The notes beneath the pieces are model-generated. The model was not told the DNA's origin. It worked only from the letters and a program-made list of their open reading frames with translations, and searched no databases. Positions 9,116 to 12,706 of a DNA stretch of 12,706 bases are shown here, piece by piece (positions within the stretch are counted from its first letter, which is position 1; the number at the start of each line of letters is the position of its first letter). The position numbers and the translations under genes are program-made. The DNA comes from Acidobacteriota bacterium (GTDB lineage Bacteria; Acidobacteriota; Terriglobia; Bryobacterales; Bryobacteraceae), in assembly GCA_947505565.1 (NCBI GenBank), contig CANNLB010000009.1:1-12706 (forward strand), read 5' to 3'.

Positions 9116-9291
9116 GCGTTGCCTACAATGATGACACATGCGTCCCAAAAACCGCTCCGAGTGCGCGCCGCAGATCCCCGCGGCATACCCACCCGGCGTC
9201 GTCGTCAGTCAACCCCGCTCCTCCATGGACGGCGACGCGGTATCGGCACCTGCCGTCTGTCAATCGCCGCGCTTTGGCGGAATGGTCGGTT

Positions 9292-9317
9292 GGTGCTACA
9301 GCTCAGAAAGCTGCACC
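9292..9317. repeat. Imperfect inverted repeat (possible hairpin)
   Basis: GGTG and CAGCT (9292-9295, 9299-9303) pair with AGCTG and CACC (9309-9313, 9314-9317), leaving a three-base bulge and a five-base loop. There is no following T-run on either strand, so it is not a standard intrinsic terminator. Confidence 0.45.
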
Positions 9318-9374
9318 CCGCCCGTTTGCTGCTAAAGTGCGGAATACCGAAGCCTGTCGCCAGACAAGAAAAGT

Positions 9375-9387
9375 TCCAACGGTTGGA
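9375..9387. repeat. Short near-perfect inverted repeat
   Basis: TCCAAC and GTTGGA flank a single G, a compact dyad that could be a protein-binding site. The overlapping arms GGATCTC (9385-9391) and GAGATCC (9416-9422) form a second, looser inverted repeat with a 24-base loop. No function can be assigned. Confidence 0.4.
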
Positions 9388-9451
9388 TCTCTCGAAAACA
9401 ACGGATAAGGTTCACGAGATCCATCCCGGCCACTATAGCCCCGGAACGGAT

Positions 9452-11611
9452 CTAGCGAGATAATCCGCTGGACTTCAAGACTCTCGCCCAAAGCGTGGTT
9501 GAAAGAACTTTGTTGAGTTCGCCGTCCAAATACTGAGCCAATTGCAGTCTTTCCTCGGCCGCGCCCTTGAAAATGCTGGCGTCTTTCTGTACCTGAGAAT
9601 AGAGTTCATTCAGCTCCTCGAGTTTCTGCAGGCGTTGCTCGCTCGCGAACCGCTGGGTTTCCACCTCTCGGCGCAGCGACTCAGTCATCGTCTGGAACTC
9701 TTCGAGCGCGCGGGCTCTCTCCTCGGCTGCGCCTTCATGTAGGCTTGCGTCGGTCTGCAATTGCCTGTAAAGCCTGTTAAGCTCCTCGAGTGCCCGCAGG
9801 CGTTGTTCGCTCGCGATACGGTAAGGTTCCGCCGCCTGTTGGGCAGATGCGTTCAATCGCTGTAACTCCTCCACGTCGCTCGCTCGCTGCTCGGCCGCGT
9901 CTTTATACAAGCTAACGTCCCTCTGGGACTGCCGATAGAGTTCATCGAGCTCCTCGAGTGCCCGCAGGCGTTCTTCGCTCGCGATACGGTAAGGTTCCGC
10001 TTCTTTGCGCCGCGATTCGTTTAACCTATGGAGCTCTTCAACATCGCACTCCCGCTGTTCGGCCGCATTTCTATAGGTCCTGGCTTCCCCCTGCGCCTGC
10101 CGAAGGAGTTCGTTAAGTTCCTCGAGTTCCTGCGCGTGTCGCTCGCTCGCAACTGGGTAACGGTCCGTCCGCTCGCGGAGAGCTTGATTTAATCCATGTA
10201 ACTCGTCCAGATCCCGCTCCCGCTGTTCAGCCGCATCTTTATAGAAGCTGACTTCGTTCTGCGCTCGCCGACAGAGTTCGTTCACTTCCTCGAGTTCCCG
10301 CAGGCGTTGCTCGCTTGCAATCCGGTGGTTTTTCGCCTCTTCGCCAAGCGACTCGTTCAATCGATGTAACGCGTCCACATCGCGCGCCCGCTGCTCGGCC
10401 GCATTCTTGAATACGGTTGCGTCGCTCTGAGCTCGCCGACAGAGTTCGTTTAGCTCTTCGAGTCCCCGCCGTCGCTGCTCGCTCGCGAGACGGTAGGTTT
10501 CCCCCTCGTTGCGGAGGGAGGCATTCATTCGATGCAACTCATTCGCATCGCGCTCCCGCTGGTCCGCCGCCTTCTTGTACTCGCTGGCGTCCTTCTGGGA
10601 TTGCAGATACAGTTCAGTCAGTTCCTCCAATGCCCTCAAGCGCTCTTCGCTCGCGATACGGTAAGTTTCTACCTCGTTGCGGAGAGACTTGTTCAATCCA
10701 TGTAACTCCTCCACATCGTGCGCCCGCTGTTCGGCCGCCTGCCGAATAATGCGCAATTGGGTCTCTTGCTCTTCCATGACGGCAAGTAGCCGACCGACCC
10801 CGACTTCGCTGGAAGTCTCTTCGACGGGTGCTTCTTCCGCCAGCGACTCCCACCAGTTGTCCGCCTCGACGTACCCTCCCGCCCGCAGTAATCCGGGGCA
10901 GGTCGCCTCCAGAAGTTTTCCGGTCTCTCGAGTAAAATGATTGCGCCAATCCCCGCTAACACCCTTTCGGCGGTGGCTGTGCTCATTCTCCTCGCCCGGT
11001 TGACGCCCGCCACTCGTCGCCACAAACGAATGCCGTGCCACCACCTCGGTCACCACTTCGTCGGGGATCTGCCAGTTCAGAAACGCAAAAATCCGACGGA
11101 ATTGGCCCTGCTCATCCGCAATCAGCGCCGCGTAGTCCAGCCGAAGTTCGTCAGGCTCGGTCCGCTCATGATCCACCCACGAACGAAACTGCTCCGCCCA
11201 TGACAAAAAGAAGTGGATTCCCATCCGAATCCGATCGCCGCGCGAGGCATGCCGCAGTGGGAGGCGCAATAACGACGTCGTCTCGTTGGGAACATGACTA
11301 TTCGCCAGCGACTTAACGAAAGAAACGATGACGTCGCGCGGATCGCGGAGGACGATCAAGCACTTGTCCGTCTCCCGGGGCTCCAGTCGGCTCTGCCATT
11401 CCGCGATTCCCGCCGTGTAAAGCGGGCTCACTACCCCGGCCGATTCAACCGTCGGCCAGCCCGCGGACGGTACGTCCCGACCGGAATCCAGAAGTTTAGC
11501 TTGGCTATAGGCAACGATAGTCGGGTCGGTTAATACATCCCGGACCCACTGACTCCCGCATTTGTAAAAAGTGCAGTGATAGATACGACTAGCGTCGTGC
11601 TCGCCCAGCAT
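9452..11611 (-). CDS. Sulfotransferase with a long C-terminal tandem-repeat coiled coil
   Basis: Residues 8-245 form a PAPS-dependent sulfotransferase domain. The 5'-phosphosulfate loop reads TFYKCGSQW (14-22, catalytic-type Lys17). The 3'-phosphate segment is IVLRDPRDVIVSF (86-98, with Arg89 and Ser97), and the closing RKGVSGDWRNHF lies at 215-226. It would transfer sulfate from PAPS to an unknown acceptor, perhaps a glycan. Residues 290-681 are seven tandem 56-residue coiled-coil units without gaps. A partial eighth unit leads into the tail LNKVLSTTLWARVLK, which resembles the short tails of some coiled-coil glycosyltransferases. There is no signal peptide, so it should act in the cytoplasm. 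The ATG at 11611 lacks a good Shine-Dalgarno; a GGAG is about 18 bases upstream. The gene is isolated by gaps of about 300 and 390 bases, and its base composition looks less GC-rich than its neighbours, suggesting acquisition. Confidence 0.88.
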   Translation of the reverse strand: MLGEHDASRIYHCTFYKCGSQWVRDVLTDPTIVAYSQAKLLDSGRDVPSAGWPTVESAGVVSPLYTAGIAEWQSRLEPRETDKCLIVLRDPRDVIVSFVKSLANSHVPNETTSLLRLPLRHASRGDRIRMGIHFFLSWAEQFRSWVDHERTEPDELRLDYAALIADEQGQFRRIFAFLNWQIPDEVVTEVVARHSFVATSGGRQPGEENEHSHRRKGVSGDWRNHFTRETGKLLEATCPGLLRAGGYVEADNWWESLAEEAPVEETSSEVGVGRLLAVMEEQETQLRIIRQAAEQRAHDVEELHGLNKSLRNEVETYRIASEERLRALEELTELYLQSQKDASEYKKAADQRERDANELHRMNASLRNEGETYRLASEQRRRGLEELNELCRRAQSDATVFKNAAEQRARDVDALHRLNESLGEEAKNHRIASEQRLRELEEVNELCRRAQNEVSFYKDAAEQRERDLDELHGLNQALRERTDRYPVASERHAQELEELNELLRQAQGEARTYRNAAEQRECDVEELHRLNESRRKEAEPYRIASEERLRALEELDELYRQSQRDVSLYKDAAEQRASDVEELQRLNASAQQAAEPYRIASEQRLRALEELNRLYRQLQTDASLHEGAAEERARALEEFQTMTESLRREVETQRFASEQRLQKLEELNELYSQVQKDASIFKGAAEERLQLAQYLDGELNKVLSTTLWARVLKSSGLSR
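9569..10744 (-). repeat. Seven tandem 168-bp repeats encoding 56-residue coiled-coil units
   Basis: Going down the minus strand the units lie at 10577-10744, 10409-10576, 10241-10408, 10073-10240, 9905-10072, 9737-9904 and 9569-9736. All are exactly 168 bp. Each begins (K/R)xAAEQRxRDVEELHRLN-like and continues RIASEQRLRALEELNELYR-like after 28 residues. 56 residues equal eight heptads, so the coiled-coil register is kept across every junction. The two halves of a unit share A3, E5, Q6, R7, R9, E12, E13, L14, L17 and Y28, showing an older duplication of a 28-residue element. At DNA level 9781-9832 and 9949-10000 match at 51 of 52 bases. Confidence 0.93.
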
Positions 11612-11700
11612 CTGTTTTTAAACCAAAGCTCCAGCCTATGATCGTACTACGCTTATCGATCCTTCGAATCTTAAGTCCAAACACGGGTCCAGGCGCAAAG

Positions 11701-11706
11701 TGTCAA
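11701..11706 (-). promoter_or_regulatory. Possible -35 box upstream of the sulfotransferase gene
   Basis: On the minus strand this reads TTGACA, a perfect sigma70 -35 match, about 90 bases before the ATG at 11611. At 17-base spacing the -10 would read TGTTTG, a poor match, so the promoter is tentative. Confidence 0.25.
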
Positions 11707-11722
11707 TTCGTTTTCTGTAGCG

Positions 11723-11738
11723 TGGCCCCTTCGGGCTA
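11723..11738. repeat. Short hairpin in the divergent intergenic region
   Basis: TGGCCC and GGGCTA pair (one G-T) around a four-base loop CTTC. It lies upstream of both flanking genes and has no T-run, so a terminator role is unlikely. Confidence 0.4.
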
Positions 11739-11991
11739 TCTGGAAATCGGAGGGGTTAATCCTGGAAAATGAGCGCAATAAAGGCTTCCAGAAAACCCGC
11801 CGGAGCGCGGGAACCATCCCGGAATCCCACCACGGCACAACCAAGCGCGAGGCCTGGCCGTGTCGGGGAATTACCCGCCACCCTCCAACGTCTGCCCCGG
11901 GATCATCAAAATGCGGAGGGCGCGAAAGACGAACCCACCACTCAAAGACAGGGTCTAAAGAATCGGATCCGCAGTCGTGTCGAAACCGCGC

Positions 11992-11997
11992 CATAAT
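11992..11997 (+). promoter_or_regulatory. Possible -10 box directly before the right-edge gene
   Basis: CATAAT matches the -10 consensus at five of six bases and ends six bases before the ATG at 12004. Transcription would start at or next to the start codon, giving a leaderless or near-leaderless mRNA, in keeping with the lack of a Shine-Dalgarno. No good -35 box is seen at the expected distance. Confidence 0.3.
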
Positions 11998-12003
11998 CTT
12001 CCC

Positions 12004-12706
12004 ATGGGTCGTTGTCTCTTTGTGCTTGGGCTGGTAAGTCTGCTCTACGGGCAGCCGATGAGCCCCGATGCTATTCTCATCGGGCGCACCCGGTACCACA
12101 TGATCGAGACCCTCCGGCGCATCCCGAACTATACGTGTCTGGAAACCATCGAACGCTCCGTCCGCCGCTCCGATTCCAAACGCGCCTCCGTTGTCGATGC
12201 CCTCCGCCTCGAAGTCGCCGTCGTCGATGGCAAAGAACTCTTTTCCTGGCCCGGCGAGCGCCAGTTCAAGGAACGCGACCTCCGCGAACTCGCCCCCGGC
12301 GGAGCCATCGGCAACGGCAATTTCGCCCTCCACGCCAAATCCGTCTTCGGCGGCGGCTACGTCACGTTCACGTTCCGCGGCCGCGAACAACGCAACGGCC
12401 GCGAAGTCGCCCGCTTCGACTACGACGTCCCTCGAAACTTCAGCGGCTACCAGATCCGCGTCGGCGACGCCTCCGCCGTCGTCCCCTATCACGGGCAAGT
12501 CGTCGTCGATTCCACCACCCTCGACGTCATCGATCTCGAAGTCGTCGCCGACGACCTACCGCCCATCCTCATGCTCAAACGAGCCACCGACTTCATGCAC
12601 TATGGCCGCCAGCGCATCGGAGAAAGCGATTTCCTCCTGCCCCTCTCTTCGGAAATGAGCATGGTCGGCCTCGACGGAGCCGAAAGCCGTAACAAAGTCA
12701 GCTTCT
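12004..12706 (+). CDS. Secreted hypothetical protein, incomplete at the right edge
   Basis: An open frame starts at ATG 12004 and runs 234 codons to the window end without a stop, so the C-terminus is missing. Residues 1-17 (MGRCLFVLGLVSLLYGQ) look like a signal peptide. The mature part contains RRIPNYTCLETIERS (38-52), VVDGKELFSWPGE (73-85), GGAIGNGNFALHAKSVF (99-115), SGYQIRVGD (147-155), GQVVVDSTTLDVIDLEVVADDLPP (164-187, in two blocks) and DFLLPLSSEMSM (209-220). I associate this pattern with uncharacterised secreted proteins common in Bryobacter/Solibacter-type Acidobacteria, perhaps with a LolA-like beta fold, but I cannot name a function. Strong C/G third-position bias supports coding in this frame; other frames over the same stretch give Arg/Pro/Ser-rich shadows. 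Confidence 0.8.
   Translation, partial: MGRCLFVLGLVSLLYGQPMSPDAILIGRTRYHMIETLRRIPNYTCLETIERSVRRSDSKRASVVDALRLEVAVVDGKELFSWPGERQFKERDLRELAPGGAIGNGNFALHAKSVFGGGYVTFTFRGREQRNGREVARFDYDVPRNFSGYQIRVGDASAVVPYHGQVVVDSTTLDVIDLEVVADDLPPILMLKRATDFMHYGRQRIGESDFLLPLSSEMSMVGLDGAESRNKVSF

Follow-up and report, generated by a model that had tools for sequence, protein, structure and literature searches.

The window analysed here, a 12,706-nucleotide stretch of an acidobacterial contig, contains a gene for a sulfotransferase with a tail of seven tandem 56-residue units, carried on a segment inserted between two genes that adjoin in related genomes. The tail differs from those of the closest orthologue and of a paralogue by whole 28- or 56-residue steps. 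We interpret it, with moderate confidence, as a coiled-coil stalk between the sulfotransferase domain and a C-terminal anchor, constrained in its register and free in its length. The coordinates of the features are collected in Table 1.

Table 1. Features of the window (positions on the forward strand; residues refer to the sulfotransferase).
Feature	Position	Strand	Basis
Inserted segment of ~2.87 kb holding the sulfotransferase gene; site empty in G012, G009, G017	9137..12002	.	Alignment of relatives
Sulfotransferase gene with long repeat tail, 719 residues	9452..11611	-	ORF; PF00685 at 66 bits
Sulfotransferase domain core (residues 83-238)	10898..11365	-	PF00685 match; sequence relatives among solved sulfotransferases
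Tandem array of seven 168-bp units (56 residues each; residues 292-683), every unit a doubled 28-mer	9563..10738	-	Self-identity, Tandem Repeats Finder, unit alignments, shuffles
Predicted break in tail helix (residues 485-490, in unit 4); orthologue Tyr-Pro at same place	10142..10159	-	AlphaFold model, alignment
C-terminal end with degenerate final 28-mer (residues 684-719), candidate anchor	9455..9562	-	Hydrophobicity; putative function

Residues 83-238 of the window protein match Sulfotransfer_1 (PF00685) at 66 bits, against a curated cut-off of 22 bits, which bears out the assignment made in the first-pass annotation. The solved structures related to the enzyme by sequence are SULT-type sulfotransferases (12 distinct sequences), and a fold search returned SULT2B1 entries as the top non-coiled matches, ranked after three long coiled-coil entries. 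Enzymes of the Sulfotransfer_1 family use PAPS as their sulfate donor. The PAPS-binding motifs, which we take to be the 5'-phosphosulfate loop, RDPRD...S and RKGxxGDWxNxF, were recognised by eye in residues 13-28, 85-104 and 212-230; most of the motif residues are invariant across five aligned relatives. The protein is probably an enzyme that adds sulfate groups. An APS kinase scored above its family cut-off in 18 of the 19 genomes of the genus (16 with E below 1e-59), and none was found in G000, a genome that is 59% complete.

The tail had previously been described, at window positions 9569-10744, as seven gap-free 56-residue units, each a doubled 28-mer. This range corresponds to residues 290-681 of the reading frame, or 392 residues (7 x 56), and the phase of the AAEQR motif places the units at residues 292-683 (9563-10738). 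A period of 168 was found independently over 9780-10738 with Tandem Repeats Finder. Self-identity of the tail is 53% at a lag of 56 and 28% at a lag of 28, and it is at most 17% for those of the 20 best-scoring lags that are not multiples of 28. Because any coiled coil scores at multiples of seven, these values were compared with shuffles inside heptad columns, which keep the composition of each column; this gave z = 19.2 at lag 56 and z = 5.8 at lag 28, and the best lag was reached by none of 200 shuffles. Even at low gap cost a gap appeared in only one of the 21 unit pairs, the other 20 aligning gap-free, so the description of the units stands and indels between them are largely absent.

The two kinds of 28-mer half are themselves distinct, with a mean identity of 14.8 of 28 residues for A with A, 16.2 for B with B and 8.7 for A with B, and every 28-mer (14 of 14) has its nearest relative in its own class. 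The latter result supports the two-level history proposed earlier, in which a 28-mer was doubled and the resulting 56-mer was then amplified, an order of events that we infer from the unit sequences. Pairwise identity between units is 41-75% in protein and 57-76% in DNA, and since the units have diverged to this extent, collapse or expansion of the repeat by a short-read assembler seems unlikely. Unit 4 is the most divergent of the seven and contains the sole predicted break of the tail helix; a degenerate extra 28-mer begins at residue 684, after the seventh unit.

Hydrophobicity along the tail peaks at a period of 3.50, and an AlphaFold model of the window protein has helices at residues 271-484 and 491-714 with a single break at 485-490, in agreement with the coiled coil that the first-pass annotation had placed at residues 290-681. 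The model is that of a monomer, built on a five-sequence alignment, and is of modest confidence (mean pLDDT 66, pTM 0.32). These data support a tail that is predicted to be helical and that would oligomerise as a coiled coil; the prolines in the tail, three in the window protein and six in the orthologue, count against a stalk. The rise of a helix is 0.1485 nm per residue, at which the seven units would span ~58 nm and residues 271-714 ~66 nm.

The closest relative, L002, from an acidobacterial MAG of Lac Pavin, is 90% identical to the window protein in the enzyme and appears, judged by coordinates, to be the same contig as G006:C133. It has nine units against the seven of the window protein. 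Mapping of the 28-mers resolved this into two separate differences of exactly 56 residues each, with 28-mers 10-11 and 14-15 of L002 being the best partner of no window 28-mer. The same genome (G006) encodes a paralogue, L025, with 69-70% enzyme identity; a tree built from 12 enzyme domains places it next to the two long-tailed copies, as their sister (supports 1.000 and 0.991). Between the first marker and the last there is one 28-residue step in L025, 14 in the window protein and 18 in L002. The comparison of repeat number that had been suggested as a check therefore returned differences in whole 28- or 56-residue steps for both L002 and L025. That such changes keep the coiled-coil register holds for the orthologue (two steps of 56) and the paralogue (one 28-residue step) and fails in G015, whose sulfotransferase tail contains steps of 48 and of 56, one of each. 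Where G015 has the step of 48, the related P0005 has one of 56, so register is broken in the G015 gene, whose reading frame is disrupted by a stop and a frame change. Sulfotransferase copies L013, L014 and L030 (G013, G015 and G010) carry in-frame stops or frame changes, the product of either decay or assembly error.

Selection on the length of the tail, as opposed to its register, had also been proposed, and this part of the earlier account finds no support in the comparisons: the long-tailed orthologues have seven and nine units at 90% enzyme identity, L025 has one step against 14, and the other measured tails of the family range from about 48 to 334 residues, some members having only 48-90. 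To judge from the aligned sequences, the tail appears to be constrained in register and not in length, and selection may act on the register. By simple counting, dN/dS between the window gene and L002 is 0.34 in the enzyme and 0.55 in units 1-4, few changes underlying the latter value (9 synonymous, 17 other); it was below 1 in the unit comparisons made between the orthologues, again on small counts. Units 5 and 6 are more diverged than units 1-4 in this comparison, and the tail is open throughout in both long copies.

In all three relatives that were aligned (G012, G009 and G017), the genes flanking the window sulfotransferase are direct neighbours, and window positions 9136 and 12002-12003 meet with an overlap of 0 to 3 bp; the window therefore carries an insertion of ~2.87 kb with the sulfotransferase gene. 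By coordinates alone, the flanking genes are equally close in G001, G010, G015 and G016. The insertion is recent and appears to be shared by G006, in which it is split over two contig ends. A stretch of ~71 bp after the window gene is 78% identical to one beside the paralogue in G006:C501. The insertion (9137-12002) sits between the start regions of two divergent genes, one for a CDGSH-type iron-binding protein and the other at 11977-12705, and the start region of both is consequently altered. Neither flank of the insertion, each searched on its own, contains direct or inverted repeats, and we make no claim of a transposon origin; plasmid records gave no match.

Among 14 sulfotransferase regions, five (L034, L035, L037, L038 and L039) have nearby a gene that we presume from its sequence to be biotin-carboxylase-like, together with genes for a biotin carrier and an IstB-like ATPase, both identified by scanning the L034 copies against Pfam. 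The carboxylase-like gene also lies near the sulfotransferase in a sixth region, L036. We take the regions with the carboxylase-like gene, carrier and ATPase as the older sulfotransferase locus. An HGSNAT-like identity for the membrane protein beside this locus was set aside after searches of Pfam and NCBIfam gave no match and PDB two chance-level ones. In G009 (L007, contig C39) the sulfotransferase frame continues into a membrane protein, as a result of either gene fusion or a lost stop; a TAG stop lies within the corresponding longer frame in L006 (G001:C250) and L008 (G017:C22).

Averaged over 18 residues, hydrophobicity at the C-terminal end of the window protein rises to 0.58, whereas the highest value among 368 such windows of the coil is 0.38, and this short, Trp-containing segment is likely to be a membrane or complex anchor. 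The most hydrophobic segment of the end has a net charge of -1, not a positive one, which argues against an anchor, and the AlphaFold model is of low confidence here. A C-terminal SxxWRxG(F/Y)xP(L/V) motif is present in 10 of 19 family proteins, and its strict form is absent from the window protein itself. A methyltransferase gene of G017 with a coil-like stretch (by eye) adjoins a Wzt_C transporter gene (L151, 16505-19043), in the manner of WbdD with Wzt. When 11 C-terminal ends were compared with that of this methyltransferase, only the paralogue L025 clearly passed (0 of 2000 shuffles as good), one GT9 end was suggestively alike (30 of 2000), and a shared end with the window protein was rejected (897 of 2000).

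A search of 151 genomes with the window tail gave matches in five, including three large proteins of the genus, of which that from G009 was scanned for domains and has PS_pyruv_trans (PF04230) and Glyco_transf_9 (PF01075) domains. The tails of these pyruvyl-transferase/GT9 proteins are built on a 28-residue unit in G009, G001, G015 and G017 and on a 49-residue unit in G006 and G012; at a contig end of G000 there is a fragment resembling the 49-residue type, which carries an in-frame stop. The length difference between the proteins of G009 and G017 is 140 residues, or five units of 28. All 12 tails examined score best at a lag divisible by seven; they are not independent, are in some cases cut by contig ends, and have a coiled composition that alone favours multiples of seven. 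Genes of this type lie at L073 8303-12385, L074 5956-9618, L072 3787-7275 and L099 6685-10944, and their repeats often coincide with contig ends (L072, L097, L100 and L101). Under a strict control that keeps repeats and register, the likeness of the window tail to these tails was weak (5 and 11 of 500 shuffles as good), and homology was not retained; an earlier, stronger result is discounted because its control destroys the repeats. By the same measure, the G015 sulfotransferase tail is clearly similar to the pyruvyl-transferase/GT9 tail (0 of 500 shuffles in both comparisons). A protein search with the tail alone returned none of 7999 scored candidates at E 0.001, which we take to reflect a limit of the method for coiled repeats and not absence. 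It is conceivable, though we give the idea little credence, that an evolvable ruler is common to several glycan-capping enzymes of the genus, with sulfotransferases and pyruvyl-transferase/GT9 proteins on stalks that are reset by whole-heptad units (28, 49 or 56 residues) and repeat number setting the glycan chain length or reach of each lineage.

In our preferred reading, a PAPS-dependent sulfotransferase would sit on one end of a coiled-coil stalk some 60 nm long, and the hydrophobic segment at the far end would be its likely anchor in a membrane or complex. An older, short-tailed gene would have been duplicated, and in one copy the long stalk would have grown through rounds of unequal exchange of a unit of 56 residues (8 heptads), itself a doubled 28-mer. 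We infer that amplification followed gene duplication; alternatively, the difference could stem from loss of units in L025 and not from gain in the window copy. Changes by whole heptads would survive because others break the coiled-coil register, and length would drift within that rule, while the stalk would set the reach or the oligomeric state of the enzyme. The acceptor is probably a cell-surface glycan, sulfated at the inner membrane. Several observations point to a surface glycan. One is P0010, a protein on short contigs whose N-terminal part is Wzt_C, a glycan-binding domain, and whose C-terminal part resembles a sulfotransferase and matches the window enzyme domain at 30% identity (E 1.6e-20). 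The others are the occurrence of Wzt_C in 19 of 19 genomes of the genus against 2 of 14 controls, the similarly tailed glycan enzymes, and the adjacent transporter and methyltransferase of G017.

The same observations bear on a narrower reading, that of a WbdD-like molecular ruler in which the sulfotransferase would add the cap to a growing polysaccharide and chain length would follow coil length, so that repeat number tunes the polymer. This would fit the order of parts, which in published work on WbdD is likewise a catalytic domain, a coiled coil and a C-terminal end, and it would fit P0010, as Wzt_C is described there as binding capped glycans in the WbdD pathway. It is also consistent with the distribution of Wzt_C in the genus and with the transporter of G017 beside a coil-bearing methyltransferase whose end resembles that of L025. 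The window protein's own end does not resemble that of the methyltransferase, however, the PF00685 score of P0010 (20.1) is below the cut-off of 22, and the stalk would be about three times as long as the 20 nm given for WbdD. A domain scan found no glycan gene, and with it no transporter or glycosyltransferase, among eight other window ORFs (four further likely genes lie outside the scan), and neighbours in the relatives' gene regions were mostly unrelated in the part of their ORFs scanned. As no polymerase or exporter was found adjacent and length is not conserved between close orthologues, we prefer the broader register-constrained stalk and keep the ruler as an unlikely rival.

The variation in unit number could also reflect a tail whose length has no function, a tandem repeat that expanded in a duplicated gene, through slippage or unequal exchange, and was tolerated because frame and register were kept. 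The differing unit numbers of close orthologues, the greater divergence of units 5 and 6 and the family members that manage with tails of 48-90 residues are all in line with this. Against it stand the open frame over the whole tail in both long copies, the dN/dS values below 1 (on small counts) and the same behaviour in the second enzyme family of the genus, and we consider this explanation rather improbable. Least probable to us is binding of the acceptor by the repeats, each copy raising catalytic efficiency with no role as a spacer, as in NeuO, for which one study reports a linear rise in efficiency with the number of tandem heptads (PMC3046976). About 39% of the residues in the window tail are charged, in favour of such binding. 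Their net charge is -22, against the positively charged heptads described for NeuO, a charge not conducive to the binding of acidic polymers; moreover, the 168-bp repeats, at 57-76% identity, are not a short, near-identical, slippage-prone DNA repeat. The enzymes with 1, 14 and 18 steps of 28 residues form a natural length series on one type of catalytic domain, suited to a direct test of the ruler idea.

Among known systems, SULT2B1 and SULT2A1 (PF00685) correspond to the catalytic domain, which matches above the family cut-off and was related to them by sequence and fold, but the solved SULT relatives matched by sequence have 284-350 residues and are too short for such a tail. A literature search, mostly of titles and the beginnings of abstracts, found no description of a sulfotransferase with a tandem coiled-coil tail, which is not proof of absence from print. 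The pyruvyl-transferase/GT9 proteins of the genus also bear tandem coiled-coil tails with variable numbers of units that are multiples of seven, on other catalytic domains (PF04230 and PF01075 in the G009 protein) and with a weak likeness to the window tail. NeuO, a polysialic acid O-acetyltransferase in which a variable heptad number changes activity, is likewise a transferase with heptad-based repeats; according to that study, its repeats are N-terminal, originate in a 7-bp DNA repeat and double as an on-off switch of the gene, whereas those of the window protein are C-terminal, diverged and 168 bp long (PMC3046976). NeuO is a precedent for a glycan enzyme tuned by a variable number of heptads and also a warning, since a triple coiled coil proposed for it was excluded by its crystal structure (PMC3046976). 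In WbdD of Escherichia coli O9a, three papers describe a coil that keeps capping enzyme and polymerase apart and determines the length of the chain (PMC5082667, PMC11231755, PMC3482155). Both proteins have an N-terminal transferase, an extended, in our case predicted, coiled coil and a C-terminal end, the last being hydrophobic and putatively membrane-binding in the window protein. Unlike WbdD, the window protein is a sulfotransferase and not a kinase-methyltransferase, is built of tandem 56-residue units, differs in length between close orthologues, and has no ABC exporter or polymerase genes among the scanned window ORFs, Wzt_C lying elsewhere in the genome. A review stresses coiled coils whose length is conserved through a spacer or ruler role (PMC5082667); here the register is preserved and length varies in discrete quanta, and the second enzyme family of the genus behaves alike.
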